A stretch of 64,000 nucleotides of DNA from Stigmatella aurantiaca DW4/3-1 (lineage in GTDB: Bacteria > Myxococcota > Myxococcia > Myxococcales > Myxococcaceae), in NCBI RefSeq assembly GCF_000165485.1, contig NC_014623.1, forward strand, positions 7,520,893 to 7,584,892, read 5' to 3'. A model generated the notes under the pieces. The model had not been told where the DNA came from, searched no databases, and saw nothing but the letters and a program-made list of their open reading frames with translations. The position numbers and the translations under genes were made by a program. This document shows, piece after piece, positions 28,214-32,722 of this stretch (within the stretch, counting starts at the first letter, position 1; every line of letters begins with the position of its first letter).

Positions 28214-28302
28214 GTATCCGTCCGGTCAGCGACGTGGTGGGGGGGGATTGAGGCCAGACCTGCGCTGTGCTCGGCGAAGATCGCGAGTTCAAAGCAGACA
28301 GG
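28214..28302 (+). repeat. Diverged copy C of the 64-bp repeat
   Basis: Aligned without gaps to 5129-5217: gtatccgtccg at the start, then gacgtg, gattgag and tgctcggcgaaga, and at the end gcgagttcaa and gacagg are conserved. The reading frame is broken by a TGA, so it is a decayed scrap of the same sequence family. Confidence 0.7.
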
Positions 28303-28407
28303 CTTCGTGGGACTGGTGATGTTCGCGGTGGCGGCGGTCGTCGGAGACGACGCGCAGCCTTCCCCGTGCCTTCACAAGAACCCAAGCCGAAATCCCCGTA
28401 GAGGGGG

Positions 28408-29565
28408 TTATCCTCGCACGGATGTGATGCCCCGGCTGCGCTTCAGTGACGACGAGGCGAAGAATCCGCCGCAGGCCTCTCTCAGGGAGCAGCCCTCGCA
28501 CTCGCGGAAGTAGACGTTCTTCCAGTCGGAGATGCTCTTTCGCGCGAAGGGGTGGAGGTCCGTGGGAAGCACGCAGAGCGGGTGGTTGTAGAGGGACGTG
28601 CTGACGCCGGCCCGGTCCAGGATTCGCACCGACGCGCGCAGGGACTCCTGGTAGTCGAGCGGATCCACCCAGAGCTTCAGAAGGTTCGTCTTCGCGAACC
28701 CCATCAACTCCAGCCCCATCAGCGCGACGTGATCCACGAAGAGCAGGTTCCGGGCGATGAAGCGCGCCAGTTCCGGAAGTCGCTCGTAGGTGAAGGCATG
28801 GATGACGACCCGGAGTTCCACCCGGACGCCCGCCCGCTTCAGGTTCAGGATGCCACGAACGGTGTCGTCGTACGCCCCCCGTGCCTGCACGACGTGGTCG
28901 TGCTCCTCGGGGAGGTCGGAGTACAGCGGGATGCCCACCATCAGGTCTGGATGCCTCACTTGGCCCAGCCCCTGGGCAAAGCCCTCCTCCGAGAAGCGCC
29001 GGCCATTGGAGAGCATGTGGACCGCAGTCATCGGCAGGTGCGTCTTCAACCCCTCCACGAGCCGCAGCAGCCCCTCTCCCAGCAGCCCGGGCTCTCCTCC
29101 CGTGATGCCCAGCTCGCGGGTCTCCGGGGAGATGAGTGGGATGAGTTCCATCAACTCTTCCAGCAACCAGGAGTCATCATGCGGGCGCGGCGGCTGCGAG
29201 CACATCAAGCAATAGTTGTCGCATCGTTCCGTGACCAGCAGGCTGTTGGACAGTGACGCCTTCCGGTAGAGCGTGCTCACCCTCCCCTGGGAAGGTTCCA
29301 CTCGCACCACGTCCCCTTCCGCGAGCGGAAACAACCCGGCAGGCAGCAGATAGGCATCCGGAACCTCCACGCCAGGGCCCTCCCCCTCCAGCAGGTACGC
29401 GCGAAACCCCGAAGGCAATGGCCCCCACGGCTCACGGACGAGGAGGATTTCCGGTGCCCCGGCGTCCGGCACAGCATAGGGGCCAACGCGGATCCGTCCG
29501 AGAAAGGGATGGGTGGACGGGCAGGAAAGGGGACGGAGACCCGGCGCGGACAGGGAAGGCATCAT
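28408..29565 (-). CDS. hxsC: His-Xaa-Ser system radical SAM maturase HxsC
   Basis: The 385-residue protein carries the HxsC-type radical SAM cluster motif TERCDNYCLMCSQPPRPHDD (CxxxCxxC, near residue 115), followed by LGITGGEPGLLGEG (the SAM-binding GGEP) and a C-terminal Cys group RECEGCSLREACGGFF that may bind an auxiliary cluster. In HXS systems HxsB and HxsC are the two radical SAM enzymes thought to modify the His-Xaa-Ser repeat protein; the chemistry is not known to me. It is the last gene of a five-gene operon and starts three bases after the hxsB stop. Confidence 0.92.
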   Translation of the reverse strand: MMPSLSAPGLRPLSCPSTHPFLGRIRVGPYAVPDAGAPEILLVREPWGPLPSGFRAYLLEGEGPGVEVPDAYLLPAGLFPLAEGDVVRVEPSQGRVSTLYRKASLSNSLLVTERCDNYCLMCSQPPRPHDDSWLLEELMELIPLISPETRELGITGGEPGLLGEGLLRLVEGLKTHLPMTAVHMLSNGRRFSEEGFAQGLGQVRHPDLMVGIPLYSDLPEEHDHVVQARGAYDDTVRGILNLKRAGVRVELRVVIHAFTYERLPELARFIARNLLFVDHVALMGLELMGFAKTNLLKLWVDPLDYQESLRASVRILDRAGVSTSLYNHPLCVLPTDLHPFARKSISDWKNVYFRECEGCSLREACGGFFASSSLKRSRGITSVRG

Positions 29566-29568
29566 GGC

Positions 29569-31011
29569 TCACAGCCACCCGAGCAGCGTCTCTCGTGCCG
29601 GAGGGTCGTCCTCGAGCAAGGTGATGAGGTGCCGGAGCACCGCCATCTGCTTCTTGCAGAAGGCGCTGAAGGCCTTGTGCCCCACGGCGTCCCCCTGTGT
29701 CGCGCGGTGGAAGACGGGATCCGCGCCGCACAGCGGAAGAAATGCGCAGTCGCTGCACATGGGCACGCCTTCCGGCATCGTGTCGCTCAAGTGAGCCAAC
29801 AGGGTTTCGGACGTCAGGAGGGCAGCGTGGCCGTCGGTGGCGACATGCCCCAACCGGAAGGACAGGTCACCCATCTCCGCCAGCATCCGGCCTTCGTCGG
29901 AGGCATAGACAGCACCGTCGTAGTTGTAGACGAGCGCACCAATCCCCAGGCCCGCTGGCGACTGAAGGTCCACGTAGTTCGAGCCCTGGGGAGAGAAGAG
30001 CTTCTGCAGGAGGAGGGTGGTGAACTCCTCGCGCAGCGCGTATCCCTTGGCGTTGAGCTCCAAAATGTGCGCGAGCCCTCGTTGGTAGAAGGCGATCCAC
30101 CGGTCGACATCGTAGTCCTGGCCGCCCTTGCCCCGGACCGCGAAACCATAGGGGCTCAGGTTGCGCAGGAAGACGGAGTGAAATCCCAGGTGCACGTATT
30201 CGTCGATGATCTCCTCCACCCGGTCCAGGCTGGTGCGTGTGGTGGTCATGAGCGCGGAGACGGCCTGATCGCCCAGGGCCTCTCTCGCACGGCGGATGCC
30301 CTCTACCGTCCGTTGGTGGCTGTTTCCACCTCGCACGGGACGCTGGGCGTTGTGCAGCGCCTCCGGTCCATCGAGCGACGTGGAGAGGAAGATGCCGTGC
30401 TGCTTGCAGAACGCCAGCATCTCCTCCGACAGCCGGGAGAGGTTCGTCGCAATGACGAACTGGAGGTCCCGCCCCAGCGGCTGGTTCAGCGTGAGGGCGC
30501 GTTCGACGACATGGCGGATGAGACCAAAGTTGAGCAGCGGCTCGCCCCCCTGGAACTCAATCTTGAGCGCGGGAGAGGGACTCTGGAACACCAGGTCCAG
30601 GGCCCGGTCCGCGTGCTCCCGCGTCATGTCGAACCGGGCCCGGTCCTCCACCTGACGCGACACCTGGCAGTACTGGCAGGAGTGATCACACCGCAGCGTG
30701 ACCACGAAGATGTGCAGGCCGGTGAAAGCCGCAAGCTGCTCGGCCCGCGTCCGATACTTGAGCGCCAGCAGGTCCAACGCCACACGCGACTGCCGGTCGA
30801 ACATGAAGTGCCGGGACTTGAGCGCCTTGTACGTTGGCGAGTCCGGCGGCAGCGTGCGCTGCACGAAGGCTACCAGGTGCTCGCGCGAGAGCACCACGTG
30901 TTCCCCCACGTCGTTGGTCACCACGTACCGGCGGTCATCCAGCGGGCTGAACCGGAAGGGTGCGAGCCGGTAGTCCGGGCCGGGTCCGAAGGCCGTGCGT
31001 TCCTGGAACAT
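29569..31011 (-). CDS. hxsB: His-Xaa-Ser system radical SAM maturase HxsB
   Basis: At 480 residues it has the size and layout of HxsB. The N-terminal segment FRFSPLDDRRYVVTNDVGEH recognises or positions substrate in related maturases, then comes the radical SAM motif FVVTLRCDHSCQYCQVSRQV (CxxxCxxC) and IEFQGGEPLLNF. A SPASM-like C-terminal Cys set is visible in CSDCAFLPLCGADPVF and FCKKQ. It would generate a 5'-deoxyadenosyl radical to modify the HxsA peptide in the cytoplasm before export. It lies ten bases after hxsD and just before hxsC. Confidence 0.93.
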   Translation of the reverse strand: MFQERTAFGPGPDYRLAPFRFSPLDDRRYVVTNDVGEHVVLSREHLVAFVQRTLPPDSPTYKALKSRHFMFDRQSRVALDLLALKYRTRAEQLAAFTGLHIFVVTLRCDHSCQYCQVSRQVEDRARFDMTREHADRALDLVFQSPSPALKIEFQGGEPLLNFGLIRHVVERALTLNQPLGRDLQFVIATNLSRLSEEMLAFCKQHGIFLSTSLDGPEALHNAQRPVRGGNSHQRTVEGIRRAREALGDQAVSALMTTTRTSLDRVEEIIDEYVHLGFHSVFLRNLSPYGFAVRGKGGQDYDVDRWIAFYQRGLAHILELNAKGYALREEFTTLLLQKLFSPQGSNYVDLQSPAGLGIGALVYNYDGAVYASDEGRMLAEMGDLSFRLGHVATDGHAALLTSETLLAHLSDTMPEGVPMCSDCAFLPLCGADPVFHRATQGDAVGHKAFSAFCKKQMAVLRHLITLLEDDPPARETLLGWL

Positions 31012-31021
31012 GGAGCGATCC

Positions 31022-31381
31022 TCAGTCCCGCCGAATGAGGTCGGTCCGGGAGAAGGCCTGGGCGAGGATCAACGCGCGCACGGGCCGCGTCTCCTCGCCA
31101 ATCTGTTCGCGCAGTTCTTGGTCCAGCAACTCCTGGAAGTAGCACCGGACGGCATCGAGAGCCTCCGCCTTGCGCGTGTCCGGACGAAAGAGACAGGTGA
31201 CCGGGAGGAGCTGCCCGTCCGAAGTACCCAAGACCACCGTGAAGTGCTCCGCGAAGCGGTAGCTGGCCTTCTGTACGGCGGCGAGGCGGTAGACGCGCAA
31301 GTCGAGCGTGAGGCGGACCACGCCCTCGTGGAAGACGAAGGCCCCGGGCACGTCCGGCGGCAGGGAGGGACTACCACTCAA
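31022..31381 (-). CDS. hxsD: His-Xaa-Ser system protein HxsD
   Basis: The 119-residue protein contains LDLRVYRLAAVQKASYRFAE followed by HFTVVLGTSDGQLLPVTCLF, the hallmark of HxsD. This small partner is always found with HxsB and HxsC and is possibly a peptide-binding or scaffold subunit. The reading begins at a TTG (31381) that overlaps the end of hxsA by 11 bp, indicating translational coupling; a GTG further in would remove about ten residues. The C-terminal helix (FQELLDQELREQIGEETRPV) is typical. Confidence 0.9.
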   Translation of the reverse strand: MSGSPSLPPDVPGAFVFHEGVVRLTLDLRVYRLAAVQKASYRFAEHFTVVLGTSDGQLLPVTCLFRPDTRKAEALDAVRCYFQELLDQELREQIGEETRPVRALILAQAFSRTDLIRRD

Positions 31382-31976
31382 GCATCACCTCGCCAGTTTG
31401 GCCTTCGAGAAGCTCCACCTCCACCGTGACATCCCCGACGAAGCGGTTCTCCACGCGGACGATGTGCGTCCCCGCCGGAAGCTCTAGGGATGCCGTCACA
31501 TCCTGCCCTACGGGCTTGTCATCCACGAAGATGCGTCCCCCAGGAAATGCGACGAACGAGACGCGGGCGGGCCGGAGCGCGCGCGAGGGCGCTTCGGTTC
31601 TTTGAGAAGAGGTGGACTCGGAATCATCGGACGTGTCGGCGCTCCGGTCGGGTGGAGGACTGGGGGCCGACGATCGGGACGGAGCAGGCGGTACGTAGGT
31701 GGGGACGTAGACGCGACGGGAGCCGCCGCTGCCCGAGTAGTGACTGCGATGCGAGGAATGGGAGCGGTGCGAGCGATGCCCCGCGAGCAGGACAGGAGGC
31801 CCACCAGCAGGCTCCACCAAGAGCACTTCGCGGTGCGAGTCCTCTTCCTCATTGCGGCGGAAGGGGTCGCCCGAAGCCTCTGCGCTGGGAACCAGAAGGC
31901 CCGAAGGTGCGGCTCCGCCAATCAACGCAAGCAGCGCGGAACTCACGGAGAGCAAGCTTGGAGGTTTGCGGCTCAT
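31371..31976 (-). CDS. hxsA: His-Xaa-Ser repeat protein HxsA with PEGA-like domain
   Basis: From the ATG at 31976 the 201-residue protein has an N-terminal hydrophobic signal (LLSVSSALLALIGGAAPSGL). It then has five consecutive His-Xaa-Ser units at residues 67-81 (HRS HRS HSS HRS HYS), the presumed modification sites, and a Gly/Ser patch. A Pro/Ser-rich linker leads to a C-terminal PEGA-like beta domain (VSFVAFPGGRIFVDDKPVGQ, then ELPAGTHIVRVENRFVGDVT). The short array and the PEGA tail suggest a surface-displayed product. The ATG overlaps the stop of the upstream gene (ATGA), so the two are translationally coupled. Confidence 0.9.
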   Translation of the reverse strand: MSRKPPSLLSVSSALLALIGGAAPSGLLVPSAEASGDPFRRNEEEDSHREVLLVEPAGGPPVLLAGHRSHRSHSSHRSHYSGSGGSRRVYVPTYVPPAPSRSSAPSPPPDRSADTSDDSESTSSQRTEAPSRALRPARVSFVAFPGGRIFVDDKPVGQDVTASLELPAGTHIVRVENRFVGDVTVEVELLEGQTGEVMLEW

Positions 31977-32722
31977 GGCTTCAGGTCTCCCACACGCAGT
32001 TCCATCAAGTCCGAGTTCCGCCACCGGGCGACGACTGGCACTGTCCCCACCTTCCAGGTGGACGTTGTGGGTCCCCGCGTCCCCTCCCTCGCGGGCGGGG
32101 TGGGAAGCGGAACGGACTGGCCCAGCGCTTGCGACAGCAAGGCCGCGGTCTCCTCCGCTTGAGCAGGCGCGTTGAGGACACGGCCCGCCTTGTCCCGGCC
32201 TACCAGGTAGACGCCCACACAGCGCTCTCCCTCCATGGCGCAGTGGAGCTGCACCGTGTCCGATTCGAGGGTGATAATCCGCGCTGAAGGCGCCGCCGGG
32301 AGGTGGAGCAGTTGGAGCACCAAGGCCCGCTCCGCGCCAACCAGGGCCAGCTTCCCCCGCTCCTCCCGGGCCCAGTTGCTGGCATCGAGCGCCCGCGCCG
32401 CCAGTTCCCGGTCTCCGGGAAGCTTCGCGGCGGCTTCGACTCCCGCGAGAACCTGATCCACGCGCTGAAGCCAGACGAGATCGGATTCTCCTTCACGAGT
32501 GGAGGGAATGAGCGTCTTCATCAAGGCCTCACGGGCCTGGACGCGTTGCTGCTTGACAGCTTCCTGTTGCTCACGGGCCGCCTTCCAACGGCAGTCGCTG
32601 CCAACGCACGCAGTGGAGGGAGCGGCCCAGGGGTCCGGTTCAGCTCCCAGGGCCGCGGGCCCTAGGAGGACGGCCAGACCTCCCACAAAGGATTTCCACC
32701 CCCGAAGTCTCTGTCTGTCCAT
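31973..32722 (-). CDS. HXS-operon secreted protein of unknown family
   Basis: The ATG at 32722 gives a 249-residue protein with a signal peptide (WKSFVGGLAVLLGPAALGAE) and a mature part that is largely helical (WKAAREQQEAVKQQRVQARE, a likely coiled coil), with two Cys pairs (ACVGSDCRW; LHCAMEGERCVGVYLVGRD). The C-terminal region (PTTSTWKVGTVPVVARWRNS, then LMELRVGDLKP) is beta-rich. I do not recognise a family. It is first in the operon and its stop overlaps the hxsA start, so it is made together with the modified peptide. It may be a chaperone, partner or second exported component of the HXS product. Confidence 0.7.
   Translation of the reverse strand: MDRQRLRGWKSFVGGLAVLLGPAALGAEPDPWAAPSTACVGSDCRWKAAREQQEAVKQQRVQAREALMKTLIPSTREGESDLVWLQRVDQVLAGVEAAAKLPGDRELAARALDASNWAREERGKLALVGAERALVLQLLHLPAAPSARIITLESDTVQLHCAMEGERCVGVYLVGRDKAGRVLNAPAQAEETAALLSQALGQSVPLPTPPAREGTRGPTTSTWKVGTVPVVARWRNSDLMELRVGDLKP

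Follow-up and report, generated by a model that had tools for sequence, protein, structure and literature searches.

Genes of the operon and the HxsA-like protein

Within the window, i.e. the 64,000-nucleotide stretch of Stigmatella aurantiaca DW4/3-1 that was analyzed, five open reading frames were found on the minus strand at positions 28408-32722: a gene referred to here as X, followed by hxsA, hxsD, hxsB, and hxsC (Table 1). This order is that of the original prediction, in which the first gene had also been described as coupled to hxsA by an ATGA overlap; an overlap of 4 nt with this sequence is indeed present. The accompanying claim that no overlap or gap exceeds ten bases failed at one junction, because hxsA and hxsD overlap by 11 nt when counted with the TTG start of hxsD. 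Gaps of 10 and 3 nt separate hxsD from hxsB and hxsB from hxsC, respectively.

Table 1. Features of the five-gene operon in the window
Feature	Positions	Strand	Properties
gene X	31973..32722	-	249 amino acids; fifth protein, probably exported; hydrophobic at about residues 9-27; Cys pairs C39/C44 and C161/C168
hxsA-like gene	31371..31976	-	201 amino acids; hydrophobic N-terminus, His-Xaa-Ser repeat, Pro/Ser-rich linker, PEGA-like tail
His-Xaa-Ser repeat HRSHRSHSSHRSHYS	31734..31778	-	HxsA residues 67-81, from the translation; presumed modification site
PEGA-like C-terminal domain of HxsA	31374..31568	-	residues 137-201; Pfam PEGA, model, Foldseek
hxsD	31022..31381	-	119 amino acids, TTG start; TIGR03976 above cut-off
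hxsB, radical SAM maturase	29569..31011	-	480 amino acids; TIGR03978 above cut-off; CxxxCxxC in the translation
hxsC, radical SAM maturase	28408..29565	-	385 amino acids; TIGR03977 above cut-off; CxxxCxxC in the translation

The HXS system was reportedly first described by Haft and Basu. When scored against the NCBIfam models, HxsD (TIGR03976; 78.8 bits, cut-off 50), HxsB (TIGR03978; 599.8 bits, cut-off 370), and HxsC (TIGR03977; 412.2 bits, cut-off 267.9) all exceeded the cut-offs, and the operon encodes a His-Xaa-Ser repeat protein with the repeat HRSHRSHSSHRSHYS. The HxsA-like protein stayed below the curated cut-off of the HxsA model TIGR03979 (48.7 versus 121.65 bits) and below those of HxsA2 NF038296 (29.4 versus 48 bits) and HxsA3 NF038309 (23.1 versus 65 bits). 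Judged from these scores, it carries the repeat without the remainder of a named HxsA and does not belong to the HxsA, HxsA2, or HxsA3 models. The operon resembles the HXS system as defined by TIGR03976-TIGR03979 in its compact layout, in its repeat-bearing HxsA-like protein, and in having HxsB, HxsC, and HxsD above the cut-offs. It differs in its HxsA, which falls below the cut-offs for named HxsA proteins and ends in a PEGA-like tail rather than a peptidoglycan-binding domain, and in the presence of a fifth gene. As far as searched, it appears to be an HXS-type operon of a distinct subtype that occurs in one myxobacterial family, that of Corallococcus.

Genes for X were found in 14 genomes (see below), and the HxsA proteins of 10 of these were aligned (alignment A3); those of G101, G056, and G113 and the split HxsA of G068 were left out and read separately. 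The His-Xaa-Ser repeat was seen in all 10 aligned proteins and was one unit shorter in two of them. The domain PG_binding_1 (PF01471) was absent from all 10 according to Pfam, the HxsA of the window included. Cysteine was likewise absent from the 10 aligned sequences. A disulfide between X and HxsA is therefore not expected, and a role of X as carrier of HxsA, one of the options offered by the original prediction, is judged unlikely insofar as it would be mediated by cysteine.

The tail of HxsA was matched by the PEGA domain (PF08308) in 8 of the 10 clade members at a Pfam E value of 0.1, the best value being 1.5e-4. For the window itself the match was weak (E 0.036; 14.4 bits, cut-off 20.8). 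A model of this HxsA built from three sequences (mean pLDDT 58) was confident only in a seven-strand tail comprising residues 137-198, with block pLDDT values of about 77-84 over residues 141-190. Foldseek matched the tail to 6hif_Y (2.9e-5) and to chains B and D of 9k1u (1.1e-4 and 2.0e-4). Likeness to a PEGA domain lies in the matches of the clade's tails at E 0.1 and in the seven-strand model, whereas the window's own tail differs in staying under the Pfam cut-off. A PEGA-like HxsA tail accompanies X in 14 of 14 genomes. The full tail was read in 13 of these; in G068 it lies on a second contig that was assumed to continue the same hxsA gene.

Seven HxsA proteins from loci without X were analyzed in the same way. 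Those of E. coli, Klebsiella, Aeromonas, Adhaeribacter, and Hymenobacter carry a C-terminal PG_binding_1 domain above the Pfam cut-off (E 1.5e-5 to 3.3e-18), and the remaining two, the HxsA of G042 and the short HxsA2 of Paraburkholderia, had no Pfam match, so that none of the seven shows PEGA. Because the E. coli and Klebsiella operons are about 98% identical in their hxsBC part, the five positive proteins amount to roughly four independent cases. With PG_binding_1 at its C-terminus, HxsA of this type looks like a wall-bound protein, and its wall-binding part appears to be replaced in the same operons that carry X. HxsA would then seem to be an envelope-bound modified protein with an end domain that can be swapped, peptidoglycan-binding or PEGA-like, and the fifth protein goes along with this exchange. 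The clade with X offers two handles on the function of HXS, namely the exchangeable end domain of HxsA and the fifth protein.

Occurrence and properties of X

A profile of the X domain (E 0.001) detected X in 14 of 195 genomes of the phylum and in none besides these 14. Among the 145 genomes of the order, for which the best first-look candidates per genome were scored, 16 matches were obtained, 14 of them strong. The other two were dropped before counting. Genome G062 has a 39-residue X-like remnant on a 16-kb contig without hxs matches, which is the sole piece located away from HXS; the match in G053 (E 2.8e-4) was recovered neither by tblastn at 0.001 nor by the profile. A scan of genome contigs, the reach of which is close relatives, gave two Corallococcus loci. 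All 14 strong homologues sit immediately before hxsA, each with the ATGA overlap. The proposal that the first gene is a true component of the operon would have suffered if homologues were mostly found away from HXS genes; it is therefore favored by this result, and the conservation of the arrangement supports X as a component of this operon type.

The idea that X belongs to HXS systems at large was rejected. Another 27 loci of HXS or HxsB-like kind were scanned by tblastn (E 0.01): 13 come from the order of the window, and of the other 14, 12 lie on plasmids, one on an E. coli chromosome, and one in a phage. None gave a match to X, to its long form, or to a Shango gene (see below), in a search that could miss distant relatives of X because the HxsA query also gave 0 of 27 and thus missed HxsA proteins that some of the loci have. 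The HXS loci outside the phylum were taken from plasmid, phage, and E. coli records only, the 12 plasmid loci being drawn from 491 plasmid records in which HxsB was detected. Of the 14 loci outside the order, 13 are annotated (11 on plasmids, plus those of E. coli and the phage), with hxsB and hxsC named in all 13 and hxsD in 9; the twelfth plasmid locus carries no annotation there. Within the order, TIGR03978 was scored by its cut-off, because it matched 14 of 14 control genomes at E 0.001 and none of them over the cut-off. On this basis HxsB was present in 20 of the 145 genomes: the 14 with X, G042, and five others. Genome G042 has a full HXS operon without X and without a Pfam-recognized HxsA tail. 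The five others (G038, G035, G050, G051, and G053) were excluded from the tally of full HXS operons, since they had no HxsD match and their HxsC-like match was weak or absent.

Searches with X gave no match in NCBIfam or Pfam at E 1, in PADLOC at 0.01, or in PHROGs at 0.1. The cysteine pair C161/C168 is kept in all 14 aligned X sequences and C39/C44 in 13 of them. Comparison of the window with four relatives yielded dN/dS values of 0.22-0.31 for X; the values for the same relatives were 0.10-0.14 for HxsB, 0.16-0.23 for HxsC, 0.14-0.27 for HxsA, and 0.25-0.36 for HxsD. X looks to be under purifying selection. Both X and HxsA start with a hydrophobic segment according to a hydropathy scan, by which alone secretion of X was judged. 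In X this segment, residues 9-27, lies barely over the threshold (1.31 versus 1.3, a value set by us). An AlphaFold2 model built from three sequences (P0001 and two Corallococcus relatives; mean pLDDT 62) predicted helices at residues 42-70, 81-99, and 105-124, followed by a mixed alpha/beta C-terminal part. The model had no PDB fold match at E 0.001 or below. When solved structures were searched by profile, X gave a single match, at E 0.81, and the long form none at 0.1. X had been described beforehand as an exported coiled-coil protein with two Cys pairs. The Cys pairs stood; export agrees with a hydropathy value just over threshold, and the term coiled coil applies loosely, to helices modeled with low confidence.

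Long form of X and its Shango neighborhood

Nine of the 14 genomes encode X as the C-terminal domain of a longer protein, 744-751 amino acids in length when counted from start codons that we chose. The long form of G112 (P0006) contains six CxxC motifs within residues 113-182, then hydrophobic segments at 319-346, 344-369, and 379-404, and finally the X domain; within the latter, residues 621-639 form a less hydrophobic stretch that likewise exceeded the threshold of the hydropathy scan. The only Pfam match above its cut-off was the short Cys-rich GRXCR1-2_C (32.2 bits, cut-off 26). The run of CxxC motifs presumably recalls DnaJ. In the remaining five genomes, the window included, X stands alone, and its hydrophobic N-terminus corresponds in the alignment to the third such segment of the long form. 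The X of the window is 38-43% identical to the long forms.

The 14 X-bearing operons formed one clade in the HxsB tree (100/100). Within it, the five short forms grouped together (100/100) with the long-form genome G068 as sister (96/94), and the other eight long forms made up a second branch (95/96). The HxsB tree favors a history in which the short X of the window would be a later truncation of the long form, a single truncation being the simplest one. The five short forms were also found together in the HxsC tree (100/98), in which the place of G068 was unresolved; the truncation history is therefore drawn mainly from HxsB. In both trees the window and G079 are nested inside the short forms of the genus Corallococcus, which suggests that the operon was transferred between genera.

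Eight of the nine long-form loci carry the genes for SngA, SngB, and SngC of the Shango system directly upstream of the long form and hxsA-D-B-C on the same strand. In G112, the Sng proteins scored 319, 605, and 924 bits against the PADLOC models of SngA, SngB, and SngC, and 28 nt lie between the end of SngC and the start of the long form. G112 was the sole relative scored with PADLOC; the other seven were assigned by 82-97% identity to its proteins. Although these eight relatives have SngABC head to tail with the long form and hxsA-D-B-C, the window gave no match to SngA, SngB, or SngC, its genome has no SngC above 245 bits, and its X is without the CxxC and three-segment parts. In G068, the long form is present, but the 8.5-kb contig that carries it gave no Sng match, and the rest of the genome has no SngC over 244 bits. 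The two forms of X, the proximity of the long form to Shango, and the PEGA-like tail in place of a peptidoglycan-binding domain go beyond the original prediction.

Because SngC matched 6 of 14 controls at 1e-60, we drew our own line for it at 700 bits. Above this line it occurred in 12 of the 145 genomes of the order, namely in the eight long-form loci and in G063, G071, G137, and G039. The latter four also have SngA and SngB matches, and no X, long-form, or hxs match was seen within the 18 kb examined. By reading of translations, the place after SngC is taken in G063 and G071 by a NERD/UvrD-type helicase and a small radical SAM protein (L098, L099); the radical SAM protein matched neither HxsB nor HxsC. 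Since other genes follow SngC in these two genomes, the slot may simply collect cargo. An HTH protein, a Ser/Thr kinase, and an esterase were named in locus L019, again from the translations. Genome G095 contains a decayed locus with the same gene order: interrupted SngA and SngB genes, an N-terminal piece of the long form, a piece of hxsD, an interrupted hxsB, and hxsC. It gave no SngC, X, or hxsA match, may include assembly errors, and was kept out of the operon count. In the HxsC tree, the protein of G095 takes a position immediately outside the eight Shango-linked loci (98/97), so that the arrangement of Shango, long form, and HXS is old in this lineage.

Possible roles of X

The assignment to families implies that, in the cytoplasm, HxsB and HxsC, aided by HxsD, would modify HxsA at its His-Xaa-Ser stretch and that the modified HxsA would then be exported. 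It would end in a PEGA-like beta-sandwich, in place of the peptidoglycan-binding domain of several HXS operons elsewhere. X, probably made in translational coupling with HxsA, would bind this tail and serve as anchor or receptor for the modified HxsA in the envelope. The ancestor may have been a larger protein with a CxxC-rich, presumably cytosolic domain, three membrane-helix-like segments, and X as the outer domain; only this outer domain would be kept in the window, exported by its N-terminal signal. That HxsA is modified inside the cell and exported and that its PEGA-like tail docks on X, which anchors or senses it, is in our estimate an even call. Our best guess of an anchor or partner was deduced from X occurring together with the PEGA-like HxsA tail. 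Gene order, conservation, the linkage of X to HXS, the joint occurrence of X and the PEGA-like tail, and the Shango adjacency in relatives are observations at the genomic level. As X, HxsA, and the rest were inherited together in one clade, the joint occurrence may be one event rather than 14. Fisher values (1.4e-18 and 3.2e-7) ignore this relatedness and are not used as evidence. The open-licence literature in PubMed Central yielded nothing on the fifth gene or on HXS with Shango.

Three other roles of X were weighed against anchoring. X could act as a chaperone or as an export factor, holding HxsA in a state fit for modification or secretion without becoming part of the final product. The ATGA coupling to hxsA in all 14 genomes, the helical N-terminal segment of the X model, and the DnaJ-like appearance of the CxxC run in the long form are in line with this idea. 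The CxxC domain is lost in the window, however, the 27 HXS loci elsewhere manage without detectable X, and X is predicted to be outside the cytoplasm, whereas modification should occur inside; we regard such a function as unlikely. X could also be an unrelated passenger, coupled to hxsA by history and without a role in HXS. It is confined to one clade, it is not detectable in HXS loci elsewhere, and by dN/dS it outpaces HxsB in all comparisons and HxsC whenever the two were paired. Nevertheless, linkage and overlap persist in 14 of 14 genomes despite 38-43% identity between the X of the window and the long forms, X appears to be under purifying selection, and in the five short forms it is the outer domain alone that survives. 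A mere passenger is highly improbable.

The third role would make X or its long form a connector between HXS and an anti-phage system, with the long form sensing modified HxsA or envelope damage outside and signaling through its CxxC-rich domain to Shango; the short form of the window would be an outer half that is left over or has been put to new use and operates independently of Shango. This idea draws on SngABC lying directly upstream on the same strand in eight of nine long-form loci, which account for 8 of the 12 SngC matches above 700 bits in the 145 genomes, and on the decayed version of the same order in G095, the HxsC of which lies next to the eight (98/97). Shango of P. aeruginosa PA14, when expressed in PAO1, reduced phage growth (PMC10250203). 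On the other hand, G068 keeps the long form without a Sng gene on its 8.5-kb contig or an SngC above 244 bits, the genome of the window has no SngC above 245 bits, other genes follow SngC in G063 and G071, where the slot may merely gather cargo, and no Sng match was obtained in the 14 HXS loci outside the order. A connecting role is improbable in our judgment.

The Shango adjacency as such hints at a role in defense. Since the genes stand head to tail with a type of system that has proved able to stop phages, a contribution of HXS to phage defense can be tested directly. In the most far-reaching form of this idea, Shango, the long form of X, and HXS would constitute one eight-gene defense system, which we hold to be quite unlikely. 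The accompanying scheme, in which two radical SAM enzymes would produce HxsA as a modified envelope protein and the membrane-spanning long form would read it outside and pass a signal to the cytosolic Shango ATPase and helicase, is just as doubtful. If it were true, a phage acting on the envelope would trigger defense at the level of DNA, and the window would harbor a Shango-free derivative that keeps the outer half. A link between HXS and Shango as a general rule was discarded, as a Sng match was lacking in all 14 HXS loci from beyond the order, whether on the 12 plasmids, in E. coli, or in the phage. Among plasmid records, SngC matched 675 and HxsB 491. Both were noted on one Sphingobium plasmid, at a distance of about 190 kb.

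Downstream flank of hxsC

Beyond hxsC, the last gene of the window operon, a short remnant of an HTH-like protein was found, and the next gene after it is esterase-like. The HTH-like protein is intact in genome G079, at HXS locus L019, and was matched across 133 of 153 residues at a second HXS locus, L017; in G079 it is convergent to hxsC, and a Ser/Thr-kinase-like gene adjoins it at both loci. Neither the HTH-like protein nor the Ser/Thr-kinase-like gene had a match at L018 or L020. No close kinase match followed the remnant in the window, the sole match (23%) lying at 44-45 kb. The names HTH-like, Ser/Thr-kinase-like, and esterase-like were read off the translations.

Positions of the HTH-like features and loci of the second HxsB-like family
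Feature	Location	Strand	Genome	Remark
HTH-like protein remnant	window 28301-28366	+		22 residues; 95% identical
HTH-like protein, intact	L019:12219-12680		G079
Second HxsB-like family	L070-L074, L076		G095:C45, G083, G118, G097, G103, G106

Shango-associated loci

At L098 (G063) and L099 (G071), the genes of the anti-phage system Shango are followed by the same two other genes, which are 90-93% identical between the two genomes; from reading of the translations, one is probably a NERD/UvrD-type helicase gene and the other encodes what is probably a small radical SAM protein. The cluster of Shango, long form, and HXS was present in a decayed state on G095:C109 (L069), where SngA, SngB, and hxsB are each interrupted and a search for SngC, X, and hxsA gave no match.

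HxsB-like genes at other loci

HxsB-like genes exceeding the TIGR03978 cut-off (370 bits) were observed at L064 (G051), L065 (G050), and L066 (G053). Each has as neighbor a small protein whose C-terminus is an extended run of His-Gly-Ser repeats, and lies among several weak HxsC-like matches; an HxsD match was absent at these loci, which possibly represent another HXS-like type. A second HxsB-like family fell short of the cut-off, at 309-322 bits. Near its members neither HxsA nor HxsD was matched, and any HxsC matches were short.

hxs genes in Leptospira and E. coli

The annotation of Leptospira phage KF114877.1 (L113) places HxsA, hxsD, hxsB, and hxsC together on the phage genome. A Leptospira plasmid (L084) carries hxsD, hxsB, and hxsC with gene lengths equal to those in the phage, and a hypothetical gene occupies the hxsA position. 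An hxsBC stretch resembling that of a Klebsiella plasmid had matches in 152 of 5426 E. coli genomes, at 154 places, all chromosomal (154/154); in the one region viewed (L112), the stretch was flanked by IS elements.
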